Positions 9,056-64,000 of a DNA stretch of 64,000 bases are shown piece after piece (the first letter of the stretch is position 1; the number at the start of each line of letters is the position of its first letter). The notes beneath the pieces are model-generated. The model saw nothing but the letters and a program-made list of their open reading frames with translations, was not told where the DNA came from and made no database searches. The position numbers were made by a program, and so were the translations under genes. Origin of the DNA: Calditrichales bacterium MX18-03 (GTDB lineage: Bacteria; Bacillota; Clostridia; Lutisporales; Lutisporaceae); contig JAJGRE010000003.1 in assembly GCA_021083345.1 (NCBI GenBank), positions 186,001 through 250,000 on the forward strand, given 5' to 3'.

Positions 9056-9080
9056 GAATGCAAAATCAAAAGTCCAACCA

Positions 9081-9240
9081 TCTTCACCCGTAGAGCTTTG
9101 GCACTATACAGCTTTGGATCACCTGCATCCAGCTGCATTAAGTAGAACCTTGCTTCGGTAATACCTGTTGACCCATTGGCATCTCTCGATGTTTCCGGGC
9201 AGCAGCATGTATCTGTATAGGAGCCTCACCTAACGAAGAT
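9081..9240 (-). promoter_or_regulatory. M-box (ykoK leader) magnesium riboswitch
   Basis: Read on the minus strand, the leader contains the highly conserved M-box core blocks in order: CTTCGTTAGGTGAGGCTCC, ATACAGATACATGCTGCTGCC, GCCAATGGGTCAACAGG, AATGCAGCTGGATGC, and the closing GCTCTACGGGTGAAG, which pairs with the first bases. Established M-box behaviour is that Mg2+-bound aptamer frees the downstream terminator and stops transcription. The target is mgtE, the usual M-box client. Confidence 0.96.
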
Positions 9241-9255
9241 TGACTTGTCATCCTT

Positions 9256-30370: not shown

Positions 30371-31681
30371 CTACTCAAAGACCGTTTGTTCCTTAACTTC
30401 GGTACACAAGGCGTTCAGAGCCTTTTCTACAATCCTTCTTCTTTTTTCCTTCTCTTGAACTGCTTCCAATTTTGGATCGCCCAGCGGATAGGGAATGGAT
30501 ACAGTGGGTACGATCCGGTTGGCTCCCACGGACATCGATATGGGTAAAATGGTGCATAGATGGGCAATGGGGATGCCATACCTTTCAATTTCTTTAACAA
30601 CCGTTGCACCGCAACGGGTACAAGTCCCTCACGTCGATACCAGCAGCACGGCATCCACCTTTTCCTGCTGAAGCATGGCACCAATTTCCTTACCGAATTG
30701 CACTGCATTGGCTACCGATGTCCCTGTTCCTGTTGTGGCATAATAGTACTCATGGACTTTGCCGATCCGACCGGATCGCTCCATTTCTCTCAGAACATCC
30801 AATGGCACGACACGGTTGGGGTCCAGGTTGGCGTAAACCGGGTCATAGCCCCCGTGTATCGTCTCATAAGACGATGCGTCCAAGGTGTCAAGCCCCGCCA
30901 GGGAATAGCGTCCGAACTTTGTCGCGCTGGCCGACTCGATGCGGTCCGGGTTTCCCTTTGGAACGATTCCGCCGCTGCTGACCAGAGCGATGGTGGCACT
31001 TGCCAGATTCTGCACCGGTGGAGCCGGATCGACCCGATCAAAATCTGCCATGGGCATTTCGGTTTCAAAGGCTTCTCCCCTCAGTCTGGCCAGCAGCATT
31101 TCCACAGCCCTGGCCGATCCGTTCTTTTCAGAAAATACGGTTTTGCGAATCCCCTTGGGTATGTAGCCTTCCTCCTCCGGTGTTCCTATAGGAAGCTGCC
31201 TCAAGAGCTTTGGTGCAAAGCCTGCCATTTTAGACAGTACTGATTTCATCCCCGCAGCCGAGTCCCCTGTTTCAATGATATAAATATCCTTTTTGCATGC
31301 ATCAACGCCGGGGTTCTCCCGGTACATACCTGTAACGGCCGGAATACCAAGTAATGCCGCTGCTTCCCTGCACAGCTCGGCACAGGCCATGCCATAGCGT
31401 CCTGCGTTAAATGCCGGACCTGCCACCAGCAGCTCCGCACCTGTCTGCTTCAGCATCTCCAGGATCCGCTTCAATGCCTCCGGCTTATTTTCATTGAAAT
31501 AATTGTCGCCGCAAACCACAGTCCCTACGACGCTGCCCCAGTCCCTGGCCATACCGTCGAAAACCGCAGCCGGGCCTACTGCTTCCTCCCGAAGGATCGG
31601 CTCCATGCCTGCCTTGTCCTCCCCGCCTGCCTGACCGAAGAACTGATTCAGATAATAAATAATCCGAACGGGTGTATCCAT
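30371..31681 (-). CDS. grdB: Selenoprotein B of glycine/sarcosine/betaine reductase, with in-frame UGA (selenocysteine)
   Basis: Translation runs 350 codons to a TGA (complement at 30629-30631) and continues in the same frame for 85 codons to TAG. With selenocysteine at residue 351 the product is 436 aa, the family's normal size. The sequence around it is VST-U-GTCTRCGA, the expected redox motif of GrdB/GrdF/GrdH. Upstream features include NQFFGQAGGEDKAG and DGSxSExTIHGGYDPVYANxDPNR-like segments. With the GrdE-type partner it forms the substrate-specific component that releases ammonia or an amine and passes a carboxymethyl group to selenoprotein A. The start is the second ATG after GAGGAGGG. 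Which substrate it uses cannot be told from sequence reading alone. Confidence 0.93.
30601..30617 (-). promoter_or_regulatory. SECIS-like stem-loop after the grdB UGA
   Basis: A perfect 7-bp stem, CCGTTGC / GCAACGG, with a GGT apical loop begins 11 bases after the UGA, inside the coding region. Position and G/U-bearing apical loop suit a bacterial SECIS for SelB. Confidence 0.65.
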
Positions 31682-31700
31682 TTCCATCCCTCCTCTCTGA

Positions 31701-32990
31701 TCAATATAGTTTGGTTGTGACATTGAAATATCCGATTTCCGAGGTGGAGCCGATGATGGCGTTCAACTCGCACCGGATGGTGCCGTCTGCTAAAAGGCTT
31801 TCATCATACCCCCCCGATAGGTTCGCAATGGCTTTGTCGTTGCCCAACACCCGGTCAGCCGGCTCCAAACTGATCAGATGGCTGACATTTCCCGTAGAGA
31901 CCACTGCCTTCGCTTCCGGAGTGGTATCGGCCAGGGGCTGTGAGCTGCCGTCCCGCCCGGCGCACTCGTCAGTAATCAGGACTGCCTTGATGCCTTGCTC
32001 CTCCAGCTTCCGACAGATCATAAGAAGGTCGGTATCGGTATTCCCATAGCCTTCTTCCGTCACAATAGCGCCTTCTGCACCGATGAGCAAGGCTAAATTA
32101 ACGGCATGATTTGCCGACCGTATTTTCCCTTCCAGTGTGACCAGCTCCGGTGTCAAGATGACACCAAGGAAATTAAGTTCTTTTCCGTGCTTGTTGTATA
32201 ATTCCCTGATGACTGAGTTATTGAGATGCTGGTAAGTGGTGATTTTATCACAGGCAGCCACGCAATTGCCGCTAACCACAGCGCCGTCCAATATCTCATT
32301 GGGATGGAACAGCGTGGGCAGCATCTGCTTTGCATCAATGCCGTAGACATAAGTGTCATGCAGCAGCCCTTGGGATATGAGCATCTCAATGTAAACCACC
32401 TTTGGCAGCTCGGGATATTTCCTGACGCATTCCGCTATGCTGCCCCATTCAAACACTTCCAATTCGTCCGGCTCACAGTCCTTTGCAAGCGCTCCTACCC
32501 ATGCGCTTGCTTTAAGACCGGCCAATCTGACTACCTCTTCATGTTCATGGGGCGTCAGACCCTGAACGGGCTTGATGTCAACAACCAGGTTGAGTGTTCT
32601 GGAAAAGGGCGTATATCGGGCCCCTTCACCCCACATATCGATGATACCCTCCTGAATGCCTACGATATCGCCGATGGTAACCACAGCCATACCGCTGAGC
32701 GCATGCGTCCTCCCGCTGCCAGCCTTGGCTATCTTATGCGTCACCCCAGGGAAGCCTCCGCCTTCTCCCTTCACTTTTACTCTGGGTTCAATGACGTCTT
32801 TGACGGGAATGATCCGCGTTCGTTCCCCCGGCTTGGCAATTTCCAATCCCACGGCAGCGATCCTACGGTCTTCCATCAGTTTTTCGATCAGGGCAGCCTT
32901 ATCGAGGGTCACTGTGCCGTCTTTATCAAGCTTGCTGTCAGGACCGAACTGCAGTTCTTTGATCCAAATTTTACCCAATTCCCACTTCAT
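31701..32990 (-). CDS. grdE: Glycine/sarcosine/betaine reductase component B proprotein (GrdE-like)
   Basis: This 429-aa proprotein is cleaved in this family at an internal cysteine to give two subunits, the C-terminal one starting with a pyruvoyl group. The cysteine is visible at about residue 243 in VSGNCVAACDKITTYQH. Other landmarks are RTHALSGMAVVTIGDI and VTEEGYGNTDTDLLM. The pyruvoyl group binds the amino substrate as a Schiff base, and the GrdB-like selenoprotein finishes the cleavage. The start is the ATG after GGAGGTG, not the upstream GTG. It overlaps grdX by 20 bases and precedes grdB by 19. Confidence 0.92.
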   Translation of the reverse strand: MKWELGKIWIKELQFGPDSKLDKDGTVTLDKAALIEKLMEDRRIAAVGLEIAKPGERTRIIPVKDVIEPRVKVKGEGGGFPGVTHKIAKAGSGRTHALSGMAVVTIGDIVGIQEGIIDMWGEGARYTPFSRTLNLVVDIKPVQGLTPHEHEEVVRLAGLKASAWVGALAKDCEPDELEVFEWGSIAECVRKYPELPKVVYIEMLISQGLLHDTYVYGIDAKQMLPTLFHPNEILDGAVVSGNCVAACDKITTYQHLNNSVIRELYNKHGKELNFLGVILTPELVTLEGKIRSANHAVNLALLIGAEGAIVTEEGYGNTDTDLLMICRKLEEQGIKAVLITDECAGRDGSSQPLADTTPEAKAVVSTGNVSHLISLEPADRVLGNDKAIANLSGGYDESLLADGTIRCELNAIIGSTSEIGYFNVTTKLY

Positions 32991-33360
32991 GTGCTTCACC
33001 TCCGCTAATTAAAGAATCATATGCCTTTAAGAGCTCCAGGTCAAGGTACTGATAGTCTCCGTCATGCCGGCAGTCCGTCCCCCTTTCCTCCAAATGCTTC
33101 CGGTGAAGCCGGATGCTGTTCTCCATGACCTCCACCTGAAATGCATCCGGATTTCCATATCCGGCTTTCATGAGTATGGACCGATAAGGCGAATAAAACA
33201 GTTTCAGGCTGGCAGGCAAGGGGTGGCTGATGAGCCCGTAACCCCGGTGGAGGAGGTCCCTCGCTTCTGTCAGAACCGAATCAACCGTTCCTGTTACAAA
33301 GCGTATATTCTTGTGCTGTTTTGCAACCAGGTTGTTATTGGTTACGATAAGGTAATTCAA
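32971..33360 (-). CDS. grdX: GrdX family protein
   Basis: This 129-aa small protein begins with an N-Y-L-I-V-T-N-N-N-L-V strand and contains a GYGLISHPLPASLKLFYSPYRS segment, typical of GrdX, encoded at the head of glycine reductase operons. Its function is not established. The start is a TTG, 8 bases after a run of G residues; no ATG near the N-terminus fits the family. Gene order grdX-grdE-grdB, without grdA, grdC, grdD or thioredoxin genes, suggests an accessory or second copy of component B. A TATAAT at 33413-33418 (complement) is a possible promoter. Confidence 0.85.
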   Translation of the reverse strand: MNYLIVTNNNLVAKQHKNIRFVTGTVDSVLTEARDLLHRGYGLISHPLPASLKLFYSPYRSILMKAGYGNPDAFQVEVMENSIRLHRKHLEERGTDCRHDGDYQYLDLELLKAYDSLISGGEAHEVGIG

Positions 33361-33470
33361 ACGGCATCCCCCCCATTTTGATATAATGTCCCGGCCATAC
33401 AAACTGCAATATATTATACTTCAATTTCAAACAGGGATATTCCTCCAGAAACGTTGAAATCTTCAAAAAA

Positions 33471-37145: not shown

Positions 37146-37607
37146 ATGGAAATGCAGCAGCTCAGCAACTATATTTTAAGGACTTTTTGGGGTATGCCGG
37201 GAAATAATTTAACCACAGGTAATGACTTTTATCAGCTTCTCCTGCAATTGCTGTTCAAGTCCATCATATATCCGCGCCTGTCAGCCTTTGCGTATGAGCA
37301 CAACGAAAGTAGCCATCTCTATTCTCAAGAAGCAATGCCGTATCAACATCAAAGTGATGCTGAGGCCGTCGTTTATGAAATCGACAATCAAATCAAGATT
37401 CAGCTGGACATTCCTGCAAGCATCAACCCGCAGCGTTTACACGTTTCTTATAACGGCAACCGGCTTATCATCCATAATTGGTCCGACGGAGGAGATAAAA
37501 TCATACAATTGGAAGGTGAACCGGCTATCGAATTGGGGACCGTAACACTTCAGGGTCGCCTGCTGGAGATCGTCATCCCTAGACAAGCCGAAAGCACAGC
37601 AAAATAA
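37146..37607 (+). CDS. Hsp20/alpha-crystallin-like small protein
   Basis: This 153-aa protein has an unrelated N-terminal helix-rich part (residues 1-65) followed by an apparent alpha-crystallin-like beta domain (about 72-150). Features are KIQLDIPASINPQRLHVSYNGNRLIIH and the terminal GRLLEIVIPRQ, which resembles the G-x-L-x-I-x-x-P of small heat shock proteins. Spore-coat CotP-like proteins have the same layout. AAAGGAG is 6 bases before the ATG. It is divergent from bcd and monocistronic. Confidence 0.7.
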   Translation: MEMQQLSNYILRTFWGMPGNNLTTGNDFYQLLLQLLFKSIIYPRLSAFAYEHNESSHLYSQEAMPYQHQSDAEAVVYEIDNQIKIQLDIPASINPQRLHVSYNGNRLIIHNWSDGGDKIIQLEGEPAIELGTVTLQGRLLEIVIPRQAESTAK

Positions 37608-37654
37608 AAGCCGGCATCCCATGGCTTATTGCCATAGAATACCAGCCCATTTAC

Positions 37655-38386
37655 TTAATTCCTTGATCCTGTCTTCTTTTGAGCGATAACGGTCAGTGTT
37701 CCGTTATTCAAGAGCCGCAGCACTTTGAAGCCATTCAGCTCCAGAAAGAGGTTCAACTCCTCCTCCGTAAATGCCCGCAGCATGGTTTTATCCCTTATGA
37801 CCCTGGTGTCCTTGCCCTTTTCTTCTATGTAGTAGGTGGCAATCCGCTTCCAGGTCCACCCGCTATTCATATTCATGGAATTCTTATTGACCCGCATATA
37901 CTTCCTGCCATTGCATTCCGCCCGCTGGATATAATCCTTCCGGAAGTTCAGAAACACATCCTTGGCATTGAAGCTGTCAAAAATCAGAAGACCTTTAGTT
38001 TTGAGGGCATTGTATATACATTTCAGCGCGTTGTTGACTTCTTTGTTTTTGGTCATGTAAGTGAAGCTTCTGCCTGATATGATGACGGCATCCACAGGCT
38101 TCTTCATGGTGAATTCCCTCATATCCCCCTGCATGAAATCGATTCCCGGATTCAATTCATATGCGATGGAAAGCCGTTCCGGGGATTTGTCCAGGCCGAT
38201 ATAACGGTAGCCCTCCTTTACAAAATACTGCGCCAGACTGCCGCTGCCGCAGCCTAGCTCCAAGATGGAGCTGCAGCCATGATCCTTCAGGATGTCATGA
38301 TACATCCTGAATTCTTTTTCAAAATTTGTGATGCTTTGATACATTTCATGATTGACTCTGGCTAATTCCAGGTGTAAGGCACTCAT
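37655..38386 (-). CDS. Class I SAM-dependent methyltransferase under T-box control
   Basis: This 243-aa protein has the SAM-binding motif I ILELGCGSGSLAQYF, the acidic end of strand 2 (IGLDKSPERL), motif II/III (FMQGDMREF, DAVIISGRSFTY) and a C-terminal substrate part with a TLTVIAQKK ending. The methyl acceptor is unknown. AAGGAG is 9 bases before the ATG. The gene stands alone behind two tandem T-box leaders and a consensus promoter, so its expression should respond to an uncharged tRNA (predicted proline). That ties the product to amino-acid limitation. Confidence 0.9.
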   Translation of the reverse strand: MSALHLELARVNHEMYQSITNFEKEFRMYHDILKDHGCSSILELGCGSGSLAQYFVKEGYRYIGLDKSPERLSIAYELNPGIDFMQGDMREFTMKKPVDAVIISGRSFTYMTKNKEVNNALKCIYNALKTKGLLIFDSFNAKDVFLNFRKDYIQRAECNGRKYMRVNKNSMNMNSGWTWKRIATYYIEEKGKDTRVIRDKTMLRAFTEEELNLFLELNGFKVLRLLNNGTLTVIAQKKTGSRN

Positions 38387-38426
38387 CCTTCTTCACTCCT
38401 TGTCAAAAATATCAATATTACAAAAT

Positions 38427-38665
38427 AAAAGGACCTCCGTCTCCTCCATAAAAGGGACGAAGGTCATTCGCGGTGCCACCCAATTTCCGGCACATGGTCG
38501 TGCCGGCGCTCAAATGCCTTTAACGCAGGCGTACGGTCTGACTTTTCACCAGACAGCTTCAAGGGCGGGTTCAAGGAAAATCCTCTCGAAAAACCTTTCA
38601 GCCTATGGGTTCTTCTCTCTGACAGAATCTTTCCCTTTACTGTTCCTCTTCATCACCATAGAAAT
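38427..38665 (-). promoter_or_regulatory. Proximal T-box leader (predicted proline, CCC specifier)
   Basis: Read on the minus strand, the leader has GATGAAGAG and AGTA in the 5' half of stem I, GAA-CCC-G in the specifier position (CCC complement at 38567-38569) and CTTGAAGC closing it. The T-box GGGTGGCACCGCG and a terminator stem (GACCTTCGTC / GACGGAGGTC) with TTTTATTTT follow. The acceptor-pairing bases are UGGC, calling for G at tRNA position 73. The terminator ends about 40 bases before the methyltransferase ATG. Confidence 0.92.
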
Positions 38666-38668
38666 ATA

Positions 38669-38921
38669 AAAACCCTCGTCTCCTCTATAAAAGGGACGAA
38701 GGTCATTCGCGGTACCACCCATCTTTCAGCACATCACCATGCTGACGCTCAAATGCCTTTAACGCGGGCTTACGGTCTGACTTTTCATCAGACGGCTTCA
38801 AGGGCGGGTTCAAGGAAAATCCTCTCGAAAAACCTTTCAGCCAATTGGGTTCTTCTCTCTGGCAGAATCTTTCCCTTTACTGTTCCTCTTCATCACCTTG
38901 GATATAAACGTACATTAATTA
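38669..38921 (-). promoter_or_regulatory. Distal T-box leader (predicted proline, CCC specifier)
   Basis: This is a near-copy of the proximal leader, with the same stem I blocks and the same GAA-CCC-G specifier region (complement at 38806-38808). Its T-box is GGGTGGTACCGCG, so acceptor pairing is UGGU and fits A at position 73, as in bacterial tRNA-Pro. Its own terminator (38669-38704 complement) ends in a U-run directly before the proximal leader. Confidence 0.92.
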
Positions 38922-38927
38922 ACATAT

Positions 38928-38956
38928 ATTATATAATGTTAATTCGCCTCTGTCAA
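38928..38956 (-). promoter_or_regulatory. Perfect-consensus SigA promoter of the tandem T-box transcript
   Basis: On the minus strand TTGACA, exactly 17 bases, then TATAAT. Both boxes are fully consensus. The predicted start is close to 38921, immediately before the distal leader. Confidence 0.9.
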
Positions 38957-63681: not shown

Positions 63682-63738
63682 AAATATCTCTCTTGCATCA
63701 ATATTCCATCCCCTCCTCCCGAAGGTAGAAAAACTATC

Positions 63739-63953
63739 ATACAAGGCAGGTTTCCTGGCTCGTGGATCATCTTACTCTCCAGCCTTCTCACCGAATTAAG
63801 TCATGTAGAGCAAACTACATCGCTTAATTTGACAATGGCACACTTGGATTTCATTCCCACTTACAGTAGCGGGGGCTGCAGCGGTCTTTCACCGCTTTCC
63901 CTATTATCCTCTTCGTTTGCTGGGCAAACGACTCTTGAGGCACCTTACATGGT
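63739..63953 (-). promoter_or_regulatory. Cobalamin (AdoCbl-type) riboswitch
   Basis: Read on the minus strand, conserved blocks appear in order: AAGGTGCC, AATAGGGAAAGCGGTGAAA, CCGCTGCAGCCCCCGCTACTG, TAAGTGGG and the B12 box GAGCCAGGAAACCTGCC. A terminator follows before cbiA. Cobalamin binding should lower expression of the whole operon. A TATAAT (complement 63994-63999) at the window edge may be its -10. Confidence 0.94.
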
Positions 63954-64000
63954 ATTATTCAATTGTGGTCTTTGCCTTCCGGCATATATATCCATTATAT

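Follow-up and report, generated by a model that had tools for sequence, protein, structure and literature searches.

A tandem proline T-box leader in front of a methyltransferase gene in a Lutisporaceae genome: a probable exchange of client gene

In the genome of Calditrichales bacterium MX18-03 (Lutisporaceae), two proline-type T-box leaders stand in tandem before a gene for a class I methyltransferase. We analysed this element within a 64,000-nucleotide stretch of contig JAJGRE010000003.1, referred to here as the window, with positions counted from its first letter. The element itself is a sound and ordinary proline-type tandem T-box, and the unusual point is its client gene. We consider it probable that the proline leader was inherited in place and duplicated, and that the gene behind it was exchanged for the methyltransferase. 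Read 5' to 3' on the minus strand, the unit comprises a promoter, the leaders T1 and T2, the methyltransferase gene and an intrinsic terminator, as listed below together with a convergent neighbour.

38928 to 38956, minus strand: SigA-type promoter TTGACA-N17-TATAAT (12/12 consensus matches)
38689 to 38902, minus strand: promoter-proximal T-box leader T1 (RF00230, 104.9 bits, E 4e-22)
38806 to 38808, minus strand: T1 specifier CCC (Pro), between GAA and G, read from the sequence in the register of proS, rocD and the other clearly read leaders
38714 to 38717, minus strand: T1 acceptor-pairing UGGU, read from the sequence, fitting tRNA-Pro A73
38668 to 38704, minus strand: T1 intrinsic terminator (-21.7 kcal/mol, z -3.3), with U run
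38450 to 38662, minus strand: gene-proximal T-box leader T2 (RF00230, 110.9 bits, E 1e-23)
38567 to 38569, minus strand: T2 specifier CCC (Pro), between GAA and G, read from the sequence and calibrated against the genome's other leaders
38475 to 38478, minus strand: T2 acceptor-pairing UGGC, read from the sequence, with C opposite tRNA-Pro A73
38426 to 38465, minus strand: T2 intrinsic terminator (-23.1 kcal/mol, z -3.3)
37655 to 38386, minus strand: class I SAM-dependent methyltransferase, 243 aa (PF13649, E 4e-15), at the position of the G006 cyclodeaminase
37608 to 37648, minus strand: unit-closing intrinsic terminator, 18-pair stem with T-rich tail
37146 to 37607, plus strand: convergent small open reading frame, 153 aa, family-less

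The first-pass annotation described two T-boxes in series, each with its own terminator, behind a perfect SigA promoter, and proposed an Infernal search with the Rfam model. That search bears the description out, as both leaders are full-length matches (model positions 1-219) above the RF00230 gathering score of 93. The antiterminator 3' strand forms part of each leader terminator, and both fold strongly, with energies well below those of shuffled sequence; the T2 terminator has a perfect stem, but a C interrupts its U run. The word "near-identical" applied to the two leaders stands for ~90% identity over the T-box core and 86% once the flanks are counted. As had also been stated, the methyltransferase is the sole gene between T2 and the unit-closing terminator, and with one gene downstream, a terminator of its own and a convergent ORF beyond, the unit is predicted to be monocistronic. 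The convergent ORF has no Pfam or NCBIfam match and is missing too at the syntenic place in G006, a genome from another genus of the same family. Elsewhere the window holds two further minus-strand riboswitches, an M-box magnesium riboswitch (9076-9244) and a cobalamin riboswitch (63728-63962). It also holds sarcosine/glycine reductase genes (30591-33402; GrdX, alpha subunit and selenoprotein B), where the selenoprotein B frame ends at 30629 beside a SECIS_4 element at 30628-30591, which points to selenocysteine UGA read-through.

The genome contains 26 T-boxes in total, and comparison of these with the genes behind them, leaving out argS, gave a rule for the specifier: the codon follows GAA or GAAx and stands before a purine, usually before RCC. 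Calibrating examples are leuS (GAA-CUC-ACC), serS (GAA-UCC-AUCC), ileS (GAAG-AUC-ACC), thrS (GAAG-ACC-ACC) and glyQ (GAAG-GGC-ACU). The proS leader reads GAA-CCC-GCCC, the same as T1 and T2, and GAA-CCC-G recurs in both members of the T-box pair of rocD-proC, which makes proline from ornithine, as well as in leaders that precede ornithine cyclodeaminase and a sodium:neurotransmitter symporter in relatives. Proline specificity of T1 and T2 follows from the specifier they share with the proS and rocD-proC leaders, and a tRNA-Pro(GGG) that fits CCC is encoded in the genome. The reading that both leaders sense proline, which agrees with the specifier originally assigned, is thus well supported by sequence comparison. 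Two observations on other leaders arose here. The two T-boxes that control the rocD-proC operon (L094, 8383-11087) share 92% identity, and the first reads UGGUAUC, not UGGUACC. In the trpE leader (L022) a second GGGTGGC motif stands ~90 bases before the actual T-box sequence and may mark another T-box or a broken one.

The case for an exchange of client comes from the chromosomal block that G006 shares with the window. Its order is etfA, acyl-CoA dehydrogenase, a TIGR00300 gene, a proline T-box, DUF3810, a small protein, rarD, dipeptidase, ADH and a PHP protein, and the window has the same genes in the same order apart from the methyltransferase spot and the small convergent ORF (identities: etfA 83%, acyl-CoA dehydrogenase 83%, DUF3810 53%, rarD 58%, dipeptidase 64%, ADH 87%, PHP protein 69%). 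Exactly where the window has T1-T2 and the methyltransferase, the proline T-box of G006 drives the TIGR00300 gene (434 bits; cut-off 411), which encodes the NPN-dependent (nickel-pincer nucleotide) ornithine cyclodeaminase that converts ornithine to proline. No TIGR00300 gene was found in the MX18-03 genome. A cyclodeaminase remnant near the methyltransferase was also considered and rejected, as the window gave no significant match. Proline T-boxes precede the cyclodeaminase in G016, G017 and G020 too, with different neighbours in G016 and G020, and G020 has a further proline T-box before a sodium:neurotransmitter symporter. Judged by these arrangements, a proline T-box before the cyclodeaminase is widespread in the family.

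Given this widespread pairing, it is simplest to suppose that the leader remained in place while its client was exchanged, and we infer the direction of the swap to be from cyclodeaminase to methyltransferase. In a tree of T-boxes the methyltransferase leaders and the cyclodeaminase leader of G006 are not grouped together but stand in an unresolved fan at 70-71% identity, so that orthology of the leaders rests on position, in synteny with one genome (G006). Within the tree, T1 and T2 are mutually closest (support 97/99), as are the two rocD T-boxes (support 100/100), and this clustering indicates that each tandem arose from its own duplication. In the proposed history, the ancestral leader would have belonged to the cyclodeaminase, which was then lost from the locus; a sporadically distributed class I methyltransferase would have come to sit directly behind it, and duplication of the leader would have placed two T-boxes in series. 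The organism can draw on an alternative source of proline, the T-box-controlled rocD-proC.

The methyltransferase has the glycine-rich SAM motif, as ELGCGSG, and matches PF13649 (Methyltransf_25) at 56.8 bits against a cut-off of 27. Broad families alone were matched; NCBIfam matches fall far under their curated cut-offs, and as a glycine/sarcosine N-methyltransferase (NF051855) it scores 48.5 bits against a curated cut-off of 350. An AlphaFold model built from three sequences, with a mean pLDDT of 66 and a lid region below 50, places it closest to the sugar N,N-dimethyltransferases DesVI/TylM1 (the top matches), CalS10, a bacillithiol methyltransferase and glycine sarcosine N-methyltransferase. 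This low-confidence model suggests a small-molecule substrate and gives no grounds for the tRNA or ribosome modification that had been suggested for the enzyme, although similarity of fold is no proof of function.

Close relatives of the methyltransferase are few. The 21 other family genomes lack it, and they are all that was sampled of the order. Of 391 genomes of the class, one (G150) has a close relative (51%), and a sample of 398 genomes from the phylum added none. The G150 gene, the only close relative available to the proposed search of orthologues for T-box leaders, has none; it lies between unrelated genes, with no proline genes nearby. Repeats of 'gacacggggacggttcttg', direct and inverted, precede this orthologue (L078, 1355-1450) and are possibly a mobile repeat. 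A scan of genome contigs returned one 35% relative (L077), with its T-box ~2.6 kb past the match. Searches of plasmids, phages and viral contigs gave nothing or distant class I methyltransferases (partial matches of at most 39%). Such a patchy occurrence suggests horizontal transfer. Foreign composition as a sign of recent import was rejected, as the gene's GC3 of 61.9 is near that of most neighbours (55.8-62.7).

An alternative is that the methyltransferase belongs to the proline regulon by function. Selection would then have kept it there to methylate proline itself, an osmolyte derived from it or some other metabolite that matters in proline shortage, and the intact leader, promoter and ORF, the pairing preserved in stem III of T2 and the presence of small-molecule methyltransferases, including glycine sarcosine N-methyltransferase, among the nearest folds are all in keeping with this. 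We nevertheless regard it as unlikely. The only close orthologue has neither a T-box nor proline genes beside it, the top folds are sugar N,N-dimethyltransferases and hence indicate no substrate, and a leader formerly belonging to the cyclodeaminase is the simpler history. Clients of the proline regulon make, move or charge proline, and no such role was found for this enzyme; nor was any proline link seen in its sequence, its fold or the neighbourhood of its G150 relative. The enzyme presumably has no proline role. The first-pass annotation had speculated that the methyltransferase client suggests a methylation step tied to proline shortage, an idea undercut by the syntenic leader in G006, which drives a cyclodeaminase absent from this genome.

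A leader that has changed its client would still be expected to work as a T-box. T1 and T2 would each recognise tRNA-Pro at two points, by the CCC specifier and at its acceptor end. With uncharged tRNA-Pro both antiterminators would form and the methyltransferase would be transcribed, and with charged tRNA-Pro the terminator of T1 or T2 would form and transcription would stop. The established T-box mechanism, applied to this anatomy, predicts that the methyltransferase is on when tRNA-Pro is uncharged; uncharged tRNA-Pro should thus still switch the gene on, presumably through two working switches. According to the published reading of tandem T-boxes, two in series need two uncharged tRNAs (PMC12452182). 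The serial layout here should likewise demand two binding events, which fits the tighter, AND-like response first proposed for it.

The differences between the two leaders bear on whether both are still functional. T1 and T2 differ in 20/214 aligned columns, and 7 of these 20 differences fall among the 94 paired positions. Stem III has two pairs altered on both sides and one altered on one side, stem II has one altered on one side, and all four still pair; in stem I one loose predicted pair is broken in T1. Though the numbers are small, the pattern favours both leaders being maintained in working form. A decaying T2 in a relic leader, with the methyltransferase at a low constant level or silent, would be in line with the loss of the original client and with the mismatch and C-interrupted U run of T2. 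However, T2 scores higher than T1 against Rfam, combines paired changes in stem III with a perfect terminator stem, and lies behind a promoter of full consensus, and we think it improbable that the leader is a relic.

The acceptor-pairing bases of T1 and T2 were compared with base 73 of the tRNA genes. All three tRNA-Pro genes (CGG, GGG and UGG) have A73, in a tRNA survey that found 58 genes and is not quite complete, as tRNA-Ile is missing. UGGU of T1 therefore suits tRNA-Pro and UGGC of T2 meets it with a C:A mismatch, as had been supposed from the usual tRNA-Pro. In all other T-boxes of the genome read for both positions, with the tRNA-Ile base assumed, the N in UGGN fits base 73 of the tRNA, except in the pheS leader (L008, T-box 1501-1715), which has UGGC although tRNA-Phe has A73; the pheS T-boxes of the relatives G006 and G016 have U at this place. 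UGGC also occurs in the proline leaders of the cyclodeaminase in G016 and G017 (L082, L083), and all three Pro tRNAs found in G016 end in A73, with no Pro tRNA found in G017. The mismatch is thus no peculiarity of T2. In the family, three distinct types of leader have C facing A73, two of these types stand before genes that fit the amino acid, and this recurrence gives no indication of another ligand or of decay. The mismatch may weaken the T2 response. The fuller proposal, in which the methyltransferase was recruited into a proline-starvation response and the U and C acceptor-pairing bases set the threshold of the two T-boxes, seems to us unlikely. Far less probable still is that T2 responds to a different, G73-bearing tRNA and the tandem combines two signals: G73 would suit UGGC, but the CCC specifier is kept, no CCC-reading tRNA with G73 is among the tRNA genes found, the G016 and G017 proline leaders carry UGGC with A73 on the Pro tRNAs of G016, and the genome's own pheS leader combines UGGC with A73. 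TBDB allows Watson-Crick or wobble pairs at UGGN-N73 (PMC7778990), and the recurring C opposite A73 in this family bears on how strict that requirement should be in T-box prediction.

Set beside known systems, the element is familiar in its parts. It resembles the T-boxes of proline biosynthesis in the family (TIGR00300, rocD-proC) in its GAA-CCC-G, T-box sequence and terminator, and the rocD-proC leader also in being a tandem, but its client is a methyltransferase with no role in proline metabolism found. Like the tandem T-boxes of Bacillota that precede the trp operon, thrS and branched-chain operons (PMC12452182), it has two complete T-boxes with their own terminators before one gene; unlike them it is proline-specific, and its UGGN differs between copies (U and C). 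Like DesVI/TylM1 and glycine sarcosine N-methyltransferase, the methyltransferase has the class I fold along its full length (Z ~18-20), whereas identity to them is 18-23%, and no sugar cluster was seen among the neighbouring genes examined. T-box specificity often serves to annotate the gene behind it, and about 8% of T-boxes have clients whose function is unknown or shows no apparent link to amino acid metabolism (Wels et al. 2008, PMC2494555), so that an odd client is not in itself new. The synteny suggests that this locus is a warning in that respect: the leader predicts the conditions of expression and not the function of the gene. Its client, like those of the 8%, lacks an evident link to the sensed amino acid, but here, unlike there, a syntenic relative shows the probable former client, and it is this capture by synteny that makes the locus useful.
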